Translations under genes and position numbers: made by a program | Part shown: piece after piece, positions 2,106-10,102 of the stretch | How positions within the stretch are numbered: the first letter of the stretch is position 1 | How the letters are laid out: each line of letters begins with the position of its first letter | Assembly (NCBI RefSeq): GCF_001457835.1 | Contig: NZ_LN898230.1 | Coordinates: 699,600-763,599, forward strand | Origin: Fenollaria timonensis | Lineage (GTDB): Bacteria > Bacillota > Clostridia > Tissierellales > Peptoniphilaceae | DNA: 64,000 bases | Direction: 5' to 3' | Notes under the pieces: model-generated | The model's input: only the letters and a program-made list of their open reading frames with translations | Told to the model about the DNA's origin: nothing | Databases searched by the model: none

Positions 2106-3773
2106 CTAGTCCTCACTTTTTAATAATTCTTTTGCATTTTTTATTGCTATATCACTTATCTTACCTGAGCTTAGTAGCCTTGCTAGTTCAATCACTCTTC
2201 CGTCGTAATCTAGTTTTTTAACGTGACTTATAGTTGCCTCGCTATCGCTAGCTTTTTCTACTAAGTAGTGTTCCTCAGCTTTAGCTAATATCTGTGGTAA
2301 GTGTGATATTGATATTATTTGATATTTATCTTTTAATTCTCTAAGTTTATTCGCAAGGCAGCTAGCAGTGTAGCCGCTAAGCCCTGCGTCTATCTCGTCA
2401 AAGATGATTGTGTCAATATTGTCAAAATCAGCGCCTAAATTTTTAATTGCAAGCATTAGTCTTGACATTTCACCGCCAGAAATGATTTCGCTTATGGGTT
2501 TAACTGATTGACCTTTATTTGCGCTCATTAAGATTTCAACGTCATCATAGCCATAATCTTTCATAGTTTTCTTTGCTTCGACCGAAATCTCGACTTGAAT
2601 ATTGCTCATATTTAAAGTTCTTAACTCATCTTCAAGCATTTTTGCAATCTTTTTAGCAAGAGCTTTTCTTTTGAGACTTAAATCACTCGCTTTTTCATCA
2701 TAAGATTTTTTATCTTCTATGAGTGACTTTTCTAATGCTGCTTTTTCTAGCTCTATATTTCTTATTTCATTTAGCTTATTATCTAAGTCTTCTCTATATG
2801 CGTTTATTTCAGCAATACTATTGCCATACTTATACTTAATTTTATTTATTTCATCTAGCCTCTTACTTAATTCATATAGCCGCTCTTGATCGTAGTCAAT
2901 AGAGTCTGAAAAGTATTTTATTTCTTCATTTATATCCTTAATAAGCTCTTGATAGTCCATAAGTTTTTCATACCAAGACTCAGCGTCTTTTGAATACTCT
3001 TTTAAGTCATCAACTAAATTACTCGCGTCGGATAAGATTGAATCTACGCTGTAATTATCACTATCTCTAAGCATTTGATTTATATTATATGCAGTCTTTT
3101 TGATATCTTCGCTCGAGTTTAGTCTTTTTATCTCAGTCTCTAGATCTTCATCTTCTCCATCTAAAATTTCAGCTTCGTCTATTTCATTTTTTTGAAATTC
3201 TATAAAATCTATTTGATTGTCGATATCTTTTTGATTATTAGGAAGCTCTTTTAAACGCTTATTGCTTTTTTCTATCTTTAAATATAATTCATTTATTTCT
3301 TTGAGCAAGGTCTTGTAAGCATTATCACCAAAATAATCAAGTATATTTATGTGCTCATTTTTGTCAAGCAGTGTAAATTGTTCTTTTTGTCCTAATATAT
3401 CAATACTTAAAGCACTTATTTCGCTTAAATCTTTTAGACTTACGCTTATATCGTTGATGTAGTTTTCACTAGGCTTATCTCTATATATAATTCTCTTTAA
3501 AATAAGTGGACTCTTAATTTTAGCGTTTAAAATAGAATTTATTTTGTCTAGTTTTTTATTATCTATATCAATATGAGCTTCTATGCTTGATGAAGCATAG
3601 CCGTCTCTTATTTGATTTTTACTAGCTTTTGCGCCTAGAACTACAGCTAAGGCATCTACTATGATGGATTTACCACTACCCGTTTCTCCAGAAATAGCTG
3701 AGAATCCATCGTTGAAATCAAGATTTAATGAATCAATTATAGCAAAATCTTTTATATATAATTTACTAAGCAT
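2106..3773 (-). CDS. recN: DNA repair protein RecN
   Basis: SMC-like ATPase that acts early in recombinational repair of double-strand breaks. The 555-residue protein shows Walker A (GETGSGKS, 29-36), a long central coiled coil (roughly 150-370), the ABC signature region ISGGEMSR and Walker B (IIFDEIDAG, about 456-464), then a SHLPQ switch segment. It sits in the tlyA-recN order conserved in Firmicutes; the argR gene often found between these two is absent. Four bases separate it from tlyA, so it is co-transcribed with it. Confidence 0.97.
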   Translation of the reverse strand: MLSKLYIKDFAIIDSLNLDFNDGFSAISGETGSGKSIIVDALAVVLGAKASKNQIRDGYASSSIEAHIDIDNKKLDKINSILNAKIKSPLILKRIIYRDKPSENYINDISVSLKDLSEISALSIDILGQKEQFTLLDKNEHINILDYFGDNAYKTLLKEINELYLKIEKSNKRLKELPNNQKDIDNQIDFIEFQKNEIDEAEILDGEDEDLETEIKRLNSSEDIKKTAYNINQMLRDSDNYSVDSILSDASNLVDDLKEYSKDAESWYEKLMDYQELIKDINEEIKYFSDSIDYDQERLYELSKRLDEINKIKYKYGNSIAEINAYREDLDNKLNEIRNIELEKAALEKSLIEDKKSYDEKASDLSLKRKALAKKIAKMLEDELRTLNMSNIQVEISVEAKKTMKDYGYDDVEILMSANKGQSVKPISEIISGGEMSRLMLAIKNLGADFDNIDTIIFDEIDAGLSGYTASCLANKLRELKDKYQIISISHLPQILAKAEEHYLVEKASDSEATISHVKKLDYDGRVIELARLLSSGKISDIAIKNAKELLKSED

Positions 3774-3777
3774 TTGT

Positions 3778-4560
3778 TCACCTACTTAAAGATTCTTTAA
3801 CCAATCTTCTTATATCGATATTACTGTGATTATCATCTCTTGTAAATAGAGCGAGATACTCAATATTTCCTTCTCCTCCCTCTATAGGCGACTTGCATAT
3901 ATCATTTAAATATATACCTTTCTCCCTGAAAGATAGAATCACATTATTTATTGCGTTTATATGTAATTTGGCATCATTAAATATACCGTTTTTTCTCTTT
4001 ATCTTACCTGACTCAAACTGAGGTTTAATTAAGACTATAAGCTTTGTATCTTCTTTCACAAGTATATTAAAAGCATCCGTTAATAATGTGAGTGAAATAA
4101 AGCTAAGATCAGATGTCACTATGTCAAAGTTTTCATTAAAAGTTTCCTTAGTAACGCCTCTAGCATCAAAAGATTCATATGAAATAACTTTTTCATTATT
4201 CTTTAATGATGGATGCAGCTGATCTTTTCCAACGTCAAGTGCATAGACTAAACGCGCTCCACGCTTTACTAAAACGTCTGTAAAGCCTCCTGTTGACGCG
4301 CCTATATCAATACATGTCTTATCATTTATATCGAGTTTAAAAGCCTCTATAGCCTTAATTAGCTTTAGAGCACCTCTAGATACATATCTTGTTATGTCGT
4401 TATCTGAGTAAATATCTATGTCGTCTTCTTCTTTGACATCATAGCTTGGATATAGTAAAGCTTTTCCGTTAACTAAAACAAAACCAGCTAAAACTAATTT
4501 CTTAGCCTTAGTTCTGCTATCAATATTTTTAAATTCACTTATATATTTATCTAATCTCAT
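3778..4560 (-). CDS. tlyA: TlyA family 2'-O-ribose rRNA methyltransferase
   Basis: Predicted S-adenosylmethionine-dependent rRNA methylase, historically called hemolysin A or YqxC. An N-terminal S4 RNA-binding domain covers residues 1-60 (MRLDKYI start, KAKKLVLAGFVLVNG). An FtsJ-like Rossmann domain follows, with the SAM motif DIGASTGGFTD at 85-95 and a later SDLSFISL segment. Length of 260 aa matches the family. The gene lies one base after the oapA stop. The same neighbours, OLE RNA, oapA, tlyA and recN, occur together in other OLE-containing Firmicutes. Confidence 0.94.
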   Translation of the reverse strand: MRLDKYISEFKNIDSRTKAKKLVLAGFVLVNGKALLYPSYDVKEEDDIDIYSDNDITRYVSRGALKLIKAIEAFKLDINDKTCIDIGASTGGFTDVLVKRGARLVYALDVGKDQLHPSLKNNEKVISYESFDARGVTKETFNENFDIVTSDLSFISLTLLTDAFNILVKEDTKLIVLIKPQFESGKIKRKNGIFNDAKLHINAINNVILSFREKGIYLNDICKSPIEGGEGNIEYLALFTRDDNHSNIDIRRLVKESLSR

Positions 4561-4561
4561 A

Positions 4562-5173
4562 CTATTTATTCTTCTTAAATATGTTTTTAAATTTTAAAAT
4601 AATTTTTGATAGAGCAAAAATAATATCTCGATACTTTAACATTGCTACAGACTTGCCTAATGATTTGCCTCCAACAGTTGCAGCAGCAACAGATGCAGTT
4701 ATTAAAGTCCCTAAGATGGCGACATTAACATTATCAAAATGCAAAGCTATCTTTGTCAAAAGCGTCGCACCTAATGCACCTGAGATAATGCCCGCCATAT
4801 CTCCAATTACATCATTGCAAAAACTTGATACTTTATCGGCGTTTTTAATTAGTCCTATGGCGATTTTACCTTCTTCAATATTATTTGATGCCATAGCATG
4901 AAATAGTTTTTCTTCAGCTGTTGTAACGCTTACCCCAATAATATCAAACAATATACCTATCATCATTACAAGTAAAAGAAGTATAACTCCAACTAAAATT
5001 CCAACATCTTCTAATAATATATCAATTATAGAAGAAAGTATTATAGACATAGCAAAAGTAAAGATGGTAATAGATAGCGTCCATTTTAAATCACTTTTAC
5101 CAGCTTTATGTTTTTTATCTTTATTTATTTTATCAATGCTTTTATCTTTATACTTTTTTTTAAAATCTGAAAT
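4562..5173 (-). CDS. oapA: OLE-associated membrane protein OapA, probable ATT start
   Basis: Small integral membrane protein with a Lys-rich cytoplasmic N-terminus and about four hydrophobic segments. The family-typical core FDIIGVSVTTAEE and NADKVSSFCNDVIGD is what I recall for OapA, which binds OLE RNA and has weak similarity to DUF21/CNNM proteins. The first ATG (5050) has no ribosome-binding sequence and would cut the first membrane helix. The frame stays open upstream to a TAA at 5179-5177. In that extension the only plausible start is ATT at 5173, six bases after an AAGGGGTG ribosome-binding sequence, giving 203 residues. No ATG, GTG, TTG or CTG occurs in the 41-codon extension. It lies immediately downstream of the OLE RNA and 1 nt before tlyA. 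Confidence 0.8.
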   Translation of the reverse strand: MSDFKKKYKDKSIDKINKDKKHKAGKSDLKWTLSITIFTFAMSIILSSIIDILLEDVGILVGVILLLLVMMIGILFDIIGVSVTTAEEKLFHAMASNNIEEGKIAIGLIKNADKVSSFCNDVIGDMAGIISGALGATLLTKIALHFDNVNVAILGTLITASVAAATVGGKSLGKSVAMLKYRDIIFALSKIILKFKNIFKKNK

Positions 5174-5241: not shown

Positions 5242-5270
5242 AAAAAAAGCTGATAGTAATCTATCAGCTT
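5242..5270 (-). terminator. Rho-independent terminator of the OLE RNA
   Basis: A 10-bp perfect stem, AAGCTGATAG (5247-5256) with CTATCAGCTT (5261-5270), closes a 4-nt loop. On the minus strand it is followed by a run of seven T residues. It ends the structured RNA before the oapA promoter. Confidence 0.92.
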
Positions 5271-5813
5271 AGTGGAAACTAAAAAAGTAAATATTACGGC
5301 TTAGGTCCAGTTGGTTTTCCCTTACTAAGGCTATATGTCACCAATCATAGCGGTTTCCCATTAATTTAGTAATTATATTGTCGCCAAATATAATACTGGA
5401 TTGCCACTTAGTCCGCACTGTAATCCCTTTTTAGTCATCTTACGATTTAGTCTAGAAGTTTTCCCAAACAGTATTTTATATCCTTAGCCTCTTTTGCAAT
5501 TTAGGTTTCGATAACTTTTCTTATTGATCTTTGGCCACAAGTTCAATAAAAAGACCTTATCATCCGCACTAGATCACTCAAGGCAAGCTACACTATTTAA
5601 AAAAATAGGTCTACATAAGATAAATCTCACGCCTCCGCGACAGCAGGGTCAACGCCTACATGCCGTTGTAGATCGCCCCATCTGCCTTACTCTCAAAGAA
5701 TGCCCATGACTGGGCGTCACAAGCACAAATCAAGAACTTCATCGATACGCTCTTTGGCGGATTTTTAGCCCCGCCTTCATGATATAGAATACTGACTAGA
5801 ATACTACACCACT
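5242..5813 (-). ncRNA. ole: OLE RNA (ornate, large, extremophilic RNA)
   Basis: About 570 nt without a credible reading frame, bounded by a perfect consensus promoter and a strong terminator. The 5' half is much more GC-rich than the surrounding DNA and has many local stems, for example GGCGG/CCGCC around 5757-5776 and GCCCA/TGGGC around 5702-5716. OLE RNAs are about 600 nt and are encoded next to the gene for their membrane partner OapA, with tlyA and recN nearby. That is the arrangement here. RNase P, tmRNA, 6S and group II intron signatures are absent. The identification rests on synteny, size and partner gene; I could not run a covariance model. Upstream polC transcripts can also read into it because I see no terminator between polC and the promoter. 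Confidence 0.85.
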
Positions 5814-5819
5814 ATGATA

Positions 5820-5848
5820 ATTATACTATAATTGATGTATTTTGTCAA
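5820..5848 (-). promoter_or_regulatory. Consensus sigma-A promoter of the OLE RNA
   Basis: Minus-strand TTGACA (5843-5848), a 17-bp spacer and TATAAT (5820-5825) form a perfect match to the vegetative consensus, predicting a start near 5813. It starts immediately after the polC stop codon. It is one of the strongest promoters in the window, implying high independent transcription of the RNA. Confidence 0.92.
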
Positions 5849-8800
5849 TTAAAATAAGCTTATCTGATTGGTATCATGCATGTCTTTAAAAAAATTAATT
5901 GATTTTAAATATGCGATTACCGTAGCATTTACTTGAGTCCTCTTTTGGAAGTCCTCAATGGAGTTAAACTCTTTAATCTCTCTCTCCCTTATAATGTTAT
6001 TAGCAGGGTCTTTTCCAAGTCCAGCTATAACTGTGAATGGCGGAATAATTTCCCTATCGATAACAGTAAACTTTGTAGCTAGTGATCTATCTAGATCAAT
6101 TGGTGCTATCTTTATATTTCTTAGCTCCATCTCTTTAACTACTTCAGCTAATGACAATAGGTCCTCATCTTTTTTCTTTGGATGAGGATTTTGGGTAATC
6201 TCTCTTACTAAGGAATCTAAATTTTCAAGTCTATGGACAAGAGCATCATAATCAAAGTCATTTATCTTTTGTGTAAAGTATGTTGCATAAAATGCTTGTG
6301 GGTAGTATACCTTATACCAAGCAAGTCTATAGCTCATCATAACATAGGCCGCAGCGTGCGCCTTTGGGAATAGATAAGATATCTTATGACAGCTGTCAAG
6401 ATACCACTCAGGAAGTGGATACTTTTTAATCTCATCCTCATAATTTATAATTATAGTTTCATTGTCAACTATTTTCTTTTGTATTAATGGTTTTCCTTTT
6501 CTAACGAACTCCATAATTTTAAATGCAGTAGACTTATCCATGCCGGCATCAATCAATTGGTTCATAATGTCGTCTCTTGTTGAAATAACTTCAGACATCG
6601 GCACGTTCATTTCATTAACTAGTTTTTCAGCGTTACTGTTCCACACGTTTGTACCATGTGAAAGACCACTTATTCTTACTAAGTCTGAGAATGTTTTTGG
6701 CTTGGTATCTTTAAGCATGCCTCTAACGAAGTTTGTACCAAATTCAGGTATGGCAATAGTGCCAACGCCAAACTTTAAATCATCGCTATTAATACCTAGG
6801 GATTCTGTTGATGAGAAAAGTGATAATACTTTTTCATCGTCAAAAGGTATATCTTCAATTTTGGTATTAGTTAAGTCTTCAAGATTTTTGATTATGTTTG
6901 GAACATCATGACCAAGTAGGTCAAGTTTTAGTATCTTACCGCTTATCGAGTGGTAATCAAAATGAGTTGTTATTATATCAGTTCTCATATCATCAGCAGG
7001 TTTTTGTACTGGAGTAAAGTCTAGTATGCTCTTATTTTTAGGCACTACCATTACCCCACCAGCATGTTGACCTGTAGTTCTCTTAGAACCTTTTATTCTC
7101 TTGCTTAAGAACATTGCGTGTAGATATGAAATGCTTTTATTTTTCTTTTCAAGATAGTCTAAGATACAAGCGGCAGCAGTCTTATCAGCTAGTGTACCAA
7201 TAGTTCCTGCTCTAAAGACAAAGTTTTCGCCAAATATCTTTTCAGTATTTTTATGAGCTGTAAGTTGATAGTCGCCAGCAAAGTTTAGATCTATATCTGG
7301 CTCTTTATCACCGTTAAAGCCTAGGAAAACCTCGAATGGTATCTTTTGTCCATCCCTATTCATCTCATGTGAACATACAGGACAGTTTTTACGAGGAAGG
7401 TCAAAACCCGAATCATATTTCGGATCATCAATAAATTCACTGTGTTTACAATTTGGACATACATAATGAGGTATAAGTGGATTTACTTCAGTTATATCAC
7501 TCATTGTTGCCGCAAATGATGAACCAACAGAGCCTCTTGAGCCGACTACGTAGCCATCAGCATTTGATTGCAAAATAAGTTTTCTTGCTATGATGTATAA
7601 AACAGCATAACCGTTGCCAATTATTGAATCAAGCTCCTTATCAAGTCTCTTCTTGACAATCTCTGGAAGAGGGTCTCCATATATGCTCGTTGCTTTATTA
7701 TAACAGCAGTCCCTTAAGTCTTTATCAGAATTTTCTATAAATGGCGGAAAGGTATCCTTAGGAATTGGTCTGAAATTTTCAAATTTTTCAGCAAAAGCAA
7801 GAGTATTATCAATAACAATTTCCTTAGCTTCTTCTGCGCTTAAATATGGAAAATTCTTTAAAAGTTCTTTAGTAGTTTTAAAATAATGATCGGTATTATT
7901 ACACTCTTTTCTGCTTCCCACAAAGTTTTTTCTATTAAAAACTAAAACGGATCTATATACACTGTCGCTTTGATCTATATAGTATACATCGCCATTAGCA
8001 AGGACAGGTATATCAAGTTCTTTTGCATTATCATATACTCTTCTATTGATGTTTTTAATAGCGTTCATTTCATGAAGACTTTCATCTTCGATCAAGTATA
8101 GATATTGATCTATTGGCTGAAGTTCGATAAAGTCAAAATACTTCATCATTTCTTTTAATTTATCGTTTTCTTCGCATCTAATACAAGCGTTATATATAGG
8201 GCCATTATAAGTGCCGCTTCCGATTAAAAGGCCATCTCTGTTCGCATCTATTTGACTCTTATATACTATTGGCTGTCTATTATAATTATCTATATGTGAT
8301 AGCGAAATTAGTCTATATAGGTTTTTTAAACCAACTAGATTTGTAGCAAATATTGATATTTTATAAACATTGTAATAGTTATTTGACTTTATTTTCGAGA
8401 AAGCTTCAAGATCGTTACAGCCTTGCTCTTTTAATAAATCTAAGAGCTTTAAGAAGACAAAGCCAGTTGCTGTAGCATCATCAATGGCTCTGTGATGATT
8501 TTCTAGAGTTATGTTGAATAAAGATGTTAATGTGTCAAGTTTATGCTTTTTTAAATCTGGTAGTAAGTATCTCGATAGCTCAAGTGTATCAATATATTCA
8601 AAATCAAATTTAACGCCCTTTCTGTGCATGGAACTTTTAATAAATGAAATATCGAACTCAGCGTTGTGAGCTACAAGAACTGAGTCTTTACAAAATTCCA
8701 TAAACTTTTCTAGTAGATCATCGAAAGATGGACAGCCTGCTACGGTTGCATCATCAATTGTTGTTAACTCAGTTATTCTATATGGTATATGAAAGCCTGG

Positions 8801-10102
8801 ATCAGTGAATTCAGAGAAATTATCTATGACCTTACCATCTTGTATCTTTACAGCACCCATTTCAATAATTCTGTCGTCAATAGCTGAAAATCCAGTTGTT
8901 TCCACGTCAAAAACGACAAAGGTATTCTTATTATCTCCTTTGTAATTATTAACTAGTGATTTTGTATCGTCAAATAGATTTGCTTCAACACCATATAGAG
9001 GCTTAATACCTGTTTCTATAGCTGCATCCATGATTTCTGGATAGCTTTGTACAACATATTTGTCCATAAAACCAATGGATTCGTAGCCTCTCTTTTTAGC
9101 TTCTTTAAAGTATTCTTTTGCTGATATGAAACCTTCTTGGCTTGACATTTTTGTGTGAAGACCAATCTCTACTCTTTTAATATCTTCTTCAGCTTCATCT
9201 AATTTTTCTTCATTAATAATTTCATAGCTATATATCTTTATGCTCATTATATTTTGGAAGAGATTAACATTGCCGCAAAGGTATAGCTTAACGCCATTAT
9301 CTATATCATAGTCATAGTCATATTGACCTTCTTTATTCTTTCTAATGAATTTACTAACTCTTATAGCCTCTTCACCATCATCAACGGCAAACTTAAGTAA
9401 AGCGTATTCATCTCTATCAACAAATTCATACTCAAACACTTCTCCTTGTATAGTAATAAAGTCCATATCTGAGCTAATGTCTTTTATTTTAATGCATTTG
9501 TTCTTATCAATTTCCTTTTTCTTTCTGAAGAATGATTTCTTTCCGCTCGCTTCAGCGCTTGGCTCGCTCTTTTTCTTTTCTTCTTTAACAATTTTAAAGT
9601 TTTCACTTATTTGTTCGGCATTGCTCTTTAATTGATCAATAAATTCTTCCTTATTTATAATAATCTCTTTGCATTTAGTTTTTATAGTTTTACCCTCAAA
9701 GCTTGAGCATAAAGATCTCATCAATTCTAAATATGGATTTGCATTGAAACTATCAAGCAAAAGCTGATTATCAAGTGTAAATGTATATACATTATCACAG
9801 TCTTCGCAGTTAAATGATTTATCATCAATATCAGTAAACTCACTTCTTATCAAATCAAAATATACATTGCATTTTGTATATGCTACTGCATTAATATTTA
9901 CATTTGATAAAGAGAATTTTAAAAAAGTAGACTTAATTACTTCGTCTACTTTTTGGCTTAGACTTTGATCTTTCAAATTATAATAATAAGTTATTTTAAG
10001 TGTCTTATCCTTAAGCACAGGACTTTCAAAAAATATCTTATCTTCATTTGAAAGAAAGTCTATATCAATATTCAGTTCTTCAGGTTTAAATAATTTTATC
10101 AT
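5849..10102 (-). CDS. polC: DNA polymerase III alpha subunit, PolC type
   Basis: Replicative polymerase of low-GC Gram-positives, 1417 residues. Visible from the N-terminus: an OB-fold region; a PHP domain starting near residue 310 and interrupted by a DEDDh proofreading exonuclease (VFDVETTGF near 396, HNAEFD, later HHRAIDDA); GSRGSVGSS near 854; a four-cysteine zinc motif (CPNC...CPVC, about 884-912); the catalytic segment EPDIDLNF near 934; and the helix-hairpin-helix/C-terminal region. A charged linker (SEPSAEASGKK) near residue 185 is the only unusual feature. It is the last gene of the rpsB-to-polC cluster, four bases after ispG, and is probably translationally coupled to it. Confidence 0.98.
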   Translation of the reverse strand: MIKLFKPEELNIDIDFLSNEDKIFFESPVLKDKTLKITYYYNLKDQSLSQKVDEVIKSTFLKFSLSNVNINAVAYTKCNVYFDLIRSEFTDIDDKSFNCEDCDNVYTFTLDNQLLLDSFNANPYLELMRSLCSSFEGKTIKTKCKEIIINKEEFIDQLKSNAEQISENFKIVKEEKKKSEPSAEASGKKSFFRKKKEIDKNKCIKIKDISSDMDFITIQGEVFEYEFVDRDEYALLKFAVDDGEEAIRVSKFIRKNKEGQYDYDYDIDNGVKLYLCGNVNLFQNIMSIKIYSYEIINEEKLDEAEEDIKRVEIGLHTKMSSQEGFISAKEYFKEAKKRGYESIGFMDKYVVQSYPEIMDAAIETGIKPLYGVEANLFDDTKSLVNNYKGDNKNTFVVFDVETTGFSAIDDRIIEMGAVKIQDGKVIDNFSEFTDPGFHIPYRITELTTIDDATVAGCPSFDDLLEKFMEFCKDSVLVAHNAEFDISFIKSSMHRKGVKFDFEYIDTLELSRYLLPDLKKHKLDTLTSLFNITLENHHRAIDDATATGFVFLKLLDLLKEQGCNDLEAFSKIKSNNYYNVYKISIFATNLVGLKNLYRLISLSHIDNYNRQPIVYKSQIDANRDGLLIGSGTYNGPIYNACIRCEENDKLKEMMKYFDFIELQPIDQYLYLIEDESLHEMNAIKNINRRVYDNAKELDIPVLANGDVYYIDQSDSVYRSVLVFNRKNFVGSRKECNNTDHYFKTTKELLKNFPYLSAEEAKEIVIDNTLAFAEKFENFRPIPKDTFPPFIENSDKDLRDCCYNKATSIYGDPLPEIVKKRLDKELDSIIGNGYAVLYIIARKLILQSNADGYVVGSRGSVGSSFAATMSDITEVNPLIPHYVCPNCKHSEFIDDPKYDSGFDLPRKNCPVCSHEMNRDGQKIPFEVFLGFNGDKEPDIDLNFAGDYQLTAHKNTEKIFGENFVFRAGTIGTLADKTAAACILDYLEKKNKSISYLHAMFLSKRIKGSKRTTGQHAGGVMVVPKNKSILDFTPVQKPADDMRTDIITTHFDYHSISGKILKLDLLGHDVPNIIKNLEDLTNTKIEDIPFDDEKVLSLFSSTESLGINSDDLKFGVGTIAIPEFGTNFVRGMLKDTKPKTFSDLVRISGLSHGTNVWNSNAEKLVNEMNVPMSEVISTRDDIMNQLIDAGMDKSTAFKIMEFVRKGKPLIQKKIVDNETIIINYEDEIKKYPLPEWYLDSCHKISYLFPKAHAAAYVMMSYRLAWYKVYYPQAFYATYFTQKINDFDYDALVHRLENLDSLVREITQNPHPKKKDEDLLSLAEVVKEMELRNIKIAPIDLDRSLATKFTVIDREIIPPFTVIAGLGKDPANNIIREREIKEFNSIEDFQKRTQVNATVIAYLKSINFFKDMHDTNQISLF

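Follow-up and report, generated by a model that had tools for sequence, protein, structure and literature searches.

We analysed a 64,000-nucleotide stretch of the Fenollaria timonensis genome (hereafter the window) and found that it very probably carries an OLE RNA-OapA gene pair, and the fresh point is that the host genus has kept OLE without a detectable MpfA-type exporter while nearly all of its relatives show the opposite. OLE ranks with the largest bacterial RNAs whose biochemical function is unknown, and its molecular role is unsettled; in Halalkalibacterium halodurans, OLE is proposed to control the export of divalent metal (Mg2+) or tolerance to it, tied to stress adaptation. The window RNA is a well-preserved new example of this already known class, and as a general finding it is not new.

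A reading of the DNA made without database searches (the sequence-only reading) had named the RNA as OLE and had proposed a covariance-model search as the check. This search bore the identification out, as the Rfam scan of the 64 kb matched OLE (RF01071) at 5828-5256 on the minus strand with 422.3 bits (E 1.2e-120; gathering score 50), over model positions 1-616 of 616 and hence at full length. No other Rfam family matched in the window, and since OLE was the sole match there, identity as a different RNA family, the alternative named in that reading, was rejected. A genome-wide search revealed a single OLE copy in the 1.74 Mb genome. The RNA and its recognizable elements are as follows.

5242-5813, minus strand: OLE RNA gene of about 570 nt, with A5813 as predicted first base and the last T of the terminator run as its end
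5756-5775, minus strand: hairpin GGCGGGGCUAAAAAUCCGCC, taken as P4, with an A-rich loop and a core invariant in 21 homologues
5613-5632, minus strand: shortened P7, an 8-bp hairpin
5590-5610, minus strand: shortened P8 hairpin
5533-5536, minus strand: palindrome GGCC in the terminal loop of P9
5328-5352, minus strand: P13-region hairpin with a GGUGAC loop

In the consensus fold, P1 pairs AGUGG near 5813 with CCACU near 5271, the bases directly before the terminator, and because P1 closes the RNA the predicted transcript runs from about 5813 to 5242. The structured non-coding unit of about 570 nt that had been proposed at 5813-5242 on the minus strand is thereby confirmed in its boundaries. Folded in isolation as a single sequence, the RNA beat all 100 shuffles (z -2.6), and at 88 of the 162 consensus pairs both sides had changed among 21 homologues with pairing kept. 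At about 570 nt and with this covarying structure, it has the length near 600 nt and the ornate, covarying fold that mark the OLE class. Across the three species of the host genus the RNA is 97-98% identical whereas its neighbours diverge (polC 84-85%, tlyA 73-77% and oapA 67-78% identical), so that no other part of the locus is nearly as constrained, and this shows strong selection on the RNA in this host.

Both dimer-contact loops that we tested were present. The A-rich loop, which makes an A-A dimer contact in OLE cryo-EM structures (PMC12286853, PMC12265935), reads CUAAAAA in the window RNA, the stem name P4 for the GGCGGGGCUAAAAAUCCGCC hairpin being our own assignment, and the GGCC palindrome of P9 corresponds to the symmetric kissing contact of the OLE dimer (PMC12286853). 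The P13 region, which binds OapB in H. halodurans (PMC9723947, PMC12054373), keeps its loop, and P9 is also retained, while P7 and P8 are reduced but present. Reduced OLE variants with short P7, P8 and P9 and an often lost OapB site, or without P7 and P8, have been described (PMC11332333); the window RNA resembles these variants 1 and 2 in its reduced P7 and P8 but fits neither, because both P9 and the P13 loop are preserved and its genome encodes OapB and OapC. Membership in variant 1 or 2 was therefore rejected. Separately, the OLE RNA of genome G037 (L012:1501-2052) was found to have lost the distal arm of P9 entirely, and with it the palindrome of the kissing loop known from the cryo-EM dimers, next to an intact oapA.

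For H. halodurans OLE, an anti-SD mimic CCUCC has been described in P6 (PMC12054373). The window RNA has no CCUCC(U) in P6 and carries CCCUGCUGUC instead, and CCUCC was present in only 12 of 69 OLE RNAs with a readable P6, so that the mimic is not general; it is a trait of the H. halodurans RNA and does not define the class. Its rarity agrees with the finding that mutants M1-M3, in which the mimic is altered, still bind bS21 (PMC12054373).

The RNA lies on the same strand as the following genes.

4562-5173, minus strand: oapA, OLE-associated membrane protein A, by the OapA profile, probably starting with AUU at 5173, which follows AAGGGG
3778-4560, minus strand: tlyA, rRNA 2'-O-methyltransferase, a usual OLE neighbour
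2106-3773, minus strand: recN, a usual OLE neighbour
5849-10102, minus strand: polC, upstream of OLE in place of the usual xseB-ispA

As the sequence-only reading had held, the adjoining gene encodes a membrane protein of OapA type, now established by the profile, and TlyA and RecN follow downstream as in the known OLE neighbourhood. The window OapA aligned with 20 OapA homologues adjacent to OLE in other genomes, and among 61 relatives a profile of these homologues detected OapA in exactly the 23 genomes that have OLE, two weak extra matches falling on MpfA genes. OapA resembles the MpfA/CorC-type CNNM Mg2+ exporters through a distant relationship with the CNNM transmembrane domain, but unlike them it has about 200 residues, lacks both CBS and CorC domains and is paired with an RNA. 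Fifteen of the 21 OapA members matched PF01595 (CNNM) at E up to 0.01, the window's own OapA fell below the Pfam CNNM threshold, and the OapA profile gave no match to solved structures. No AUG, GUG or UUG is plausibly placed at the beginning of the window oapA, whose frame opens with AUU at 5173 on the minus strand; the sister species start near the same place with ATG (G002) and TTG (G001), and the AUU may be a rare start codon or an assembly error.

The remaining partners are encoded elsewhere in the genome. A KOW protein of OapB type lies between adk and infA, an L7Ae protein of OapC type is encoded between rpoC and rpsL, and bS21 is present as well. With OapA, all published core OLE partners are thus present, although OapB, OapC and bS21 are not strict requirements for membership in the OLE class. 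OapC was assigned by its Pfam family and chromosomal place, and OapB by its place and a by-eye alignment with the same-place KOW proteins of OLE-bearing relatives. Both assignments also drew on the usual make-up of these operons, and they were guided by ybzG and ybxF as described in PMC9723947.

We then compared the occurrence of OLE with that of MpfA. OLE was found in four of 130 genomes and two of 39 genera of the host family, namely in the three species of the host genus and in one further genus (G028). A six-frame profile search for CNNM/MpfA exporters, run on draft assemblies, detected none in any of the three species of the host genus, while 126 of the 127 other family genomes had one. 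The sole other family genome without a CNNM/MpfA match (G135) has no OLE and is a draft in 100 contigs, and its assembly is perhaps incomplete. The OapC-type protein followed OLE, occurring in 4/4 OLE-bearing versus 6/126 OLE-lacking genomes of the family. Among the 61 relatives across the order, MpfA was missing from 11 of the 23 genomes with OLE versus one of the 38 without it, matches falling on oapA itself being excluded from the MpfA counts, and as these counts come from related genomes that share ancestry, Fisher p-values overstate the evidence and are only indicative. The exclusion is not strict, because G028 keeps one MpfA and about half of the order's OLE-bearing genomes also have it.

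The family pattern agrees with the published anticorrelation of OLE and MpfA across Bacillota (PMC11332333) and places it inside one family, and it lends support, short of proof, to the published proposal of OLE/OapA and MpfA as alternatives. A single lineage supplies all three of the family's genomes that have OLE without MpfA, and the link could on that account be a coincidence of lineage-specific gene loss; however, the same trend appears in the sampled order, as counted above, and across Bacillota at large, and we regard coincidence as possible but rather unlikely.

The distribution also bears on how the host genus came to have OLE. In an rpoB tree the host genus branches before the nearest OLE-lacking clade (support 85/81) and G028 sits in a second, mostly OLE-lacking clade, and the order's other families commonly have OLE; vertical inheritance of OLE-oapA with at least two losses is the simplest reading. 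Horizontal gain of OLE-oapA by the host genus would accord with the presence of OLE in only two genera of the family and with an upstream neighbour that is polC and not ispA. Against such a transfer, OLE adjoins tlyA-recN here as elsewhere in the order, OapB and OapC lie at their usual chromosomal places, the host genus precedes the nearest OLE-lacking clade in the tree, and G028 retains the ancestral order xseB-ispA-OLE-oapA, so that we consider transfer improbable. This arrangement, followed by tlyA, dxs or argR, is shared by G028 and other members of the order, the names xseB and ispA being read by eye from translations. The tlyA locus was read in 15 OLE-lacking genera of the family, and in all of them ispA directly adjoins or overlaps tlyA, with no remnant of OLE-oapA.

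Several features of the neighbouring genes are recorded here in their own right. In G028 (L020:1501-3568), argR and recN directly follow OLE-oapA, and TlyA was not matched in the genome. The tlyA of G001 is split by a frameshift (L023, L129) and the recN of G002 is broken into several frames (L128), these being pseudogenes or assembly errors. The TlyA of the host genus (window 3778-4560) is unusually divergent. It shares about 37-42% identity with a TlyA taken from a different family of the order, and the TlyA of most other genera of the host family is 52-60% identical to that same reference.

We found no literature linking OLE with genera of the host family. Known OLE hosts already include mesophilic anaerobes. 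Clostridium species are among the anaerobes with described OLE RNAs (PMC12265935, PMC12286853), and 2,822 matches have been reported in Bacillota (PMC11332333), so that its presence in a non-extremophilic fermenter, as the sequence-only reading took the host to be, would not surprise.

The signals for transcription of the RNA are the following.

5843-5848, minus strand: -35 hexamer TTGACA of the OLE promoter, beginning one base past the polC stop codon
5820-5825, minus strand: -10 hexamer TATAAT of the OLE promoter, after a 17-nt spacer
5247-5270, minus strand: intrinsic terminator stem-loop of 10 bp (z -5.6), followed by a T run

The claim of a perfect promoter and a strong terminator was upheld, as the two hexamers equal the consensus at 12 of 12 positions and a 10-bp stem precedes the T run. 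Promoter-like sites around OLE were no more frequent than in shuffled sequence, and the perfect promoter was therefore rejected as significant by count alone; what lends it weight is that the hexamers are invariant among the three species of the host genus and the 17-nt spacer between them is not. In 23/23 OLE loci of the order examined, a promoter-like site, mostly TTGAA-17-TATAAT, closely precedes the conserved 5' end; in most loci it beat nearly all shuffled sequences, and in a few (e.g. L011, L021) it was weak. The sequence-only reading had set this locus apart as self-contained, unlike the operon-embedded RNA of H. halodurans, which is indeed polycistronic (PMC12265935) where the window RNA is predicted to be monocistronic by its own promoter and terminator. 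The promoter and terminator stand, but the self-contained arrangement is not peculiar to this locus: across the order, OLE loci as a rule have a promoter of their own, so that the idea of unusual transcription here was rejected and the difference from H. halodurans is order-wide and not organism-specific. Expression in the host, including the strong expression that had been claimed, is predicted from sequence. Since oapA follows the RNA immediately and in the same orientation, the RNA might instead be a long 5' leader of an oapA-tlyA-recN operon, or a segment processed from it, that acts mainly in cis on oapA. This is very improbable, given that a strong terminator and an unconserved spacer stand between the two, that P1 closes the RNA just before that terminator and that homologous OLE RNAs bind several proteins in trans (PMC9723947, PMC12054373).

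Compared with known systems, the window locus is close to that of H. halodurans in its adjoining oapA, nearby tlyA and recN and encoded OapB, OapC and bS21, as well as in the full-length covariance match and the dimer-loop motifs and P13 loop kept in the RNA; it differs in the shortened P7 and P8, the missing CCUCC mimic in P6 and the upstream polC. With the OLE RNAs of C. acetobutylicum and C. botulinum, seen as dimers by cryo-EM, it shares the A-rich loop and the P9 GGCC palindrome, but its P7 and P8 are shorter than the Rfam consensus.

Under the mechanism that we propose, in which we follow the OLE literature as giving the best-supported account, a vertically inherited OLE ribonucleoprotein gene pair would give rise, from its own consensus promoter, to a monocistronic OLE RNA of about 570 nt, which would fold with conserved dimer and protein-binding elements and act as a dimer at the membrane together with CNNM-like OapA, OapB, OapC and perhaps bS21. 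We infer complex formation, dimer formation and membrane placement in this host. The most likely job of the complex would be, as proposed for H. halodurans, Mg2+ export or tolerance control coupled to stress adaptation, and we give the Mg2+ role of OLE in this host about an even chance. Since no CNNM/MpfA exporter was detected in the host genus, the OLE complex would carry the Mg2+ job alone there, and OLE may be the only CNNM-type Mg2+ system of the genus.

The family-level swap and the empty sites are modest additions, of interest to specialists. The contrast within the family, in which OLE, oapA and oapC have been lost amid near-universal MpfA save for one genus with the reverse pattern, offers close comparisons for the proposal that the two have overlapping jobs. 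We suggest tentatively, at somewhat less than even odds, that OLE-OapA-OapB-OapC has fully replaced MpfA-type Mg2+ export in the small-genome host genus, where it may be essential, and that almost all relatives have swapped in the reverse direction by precise loss of OLE-oapA, mostly together with OapC. If true, the paired losses in this family would form a natural set in which the role of OLE could be tested.
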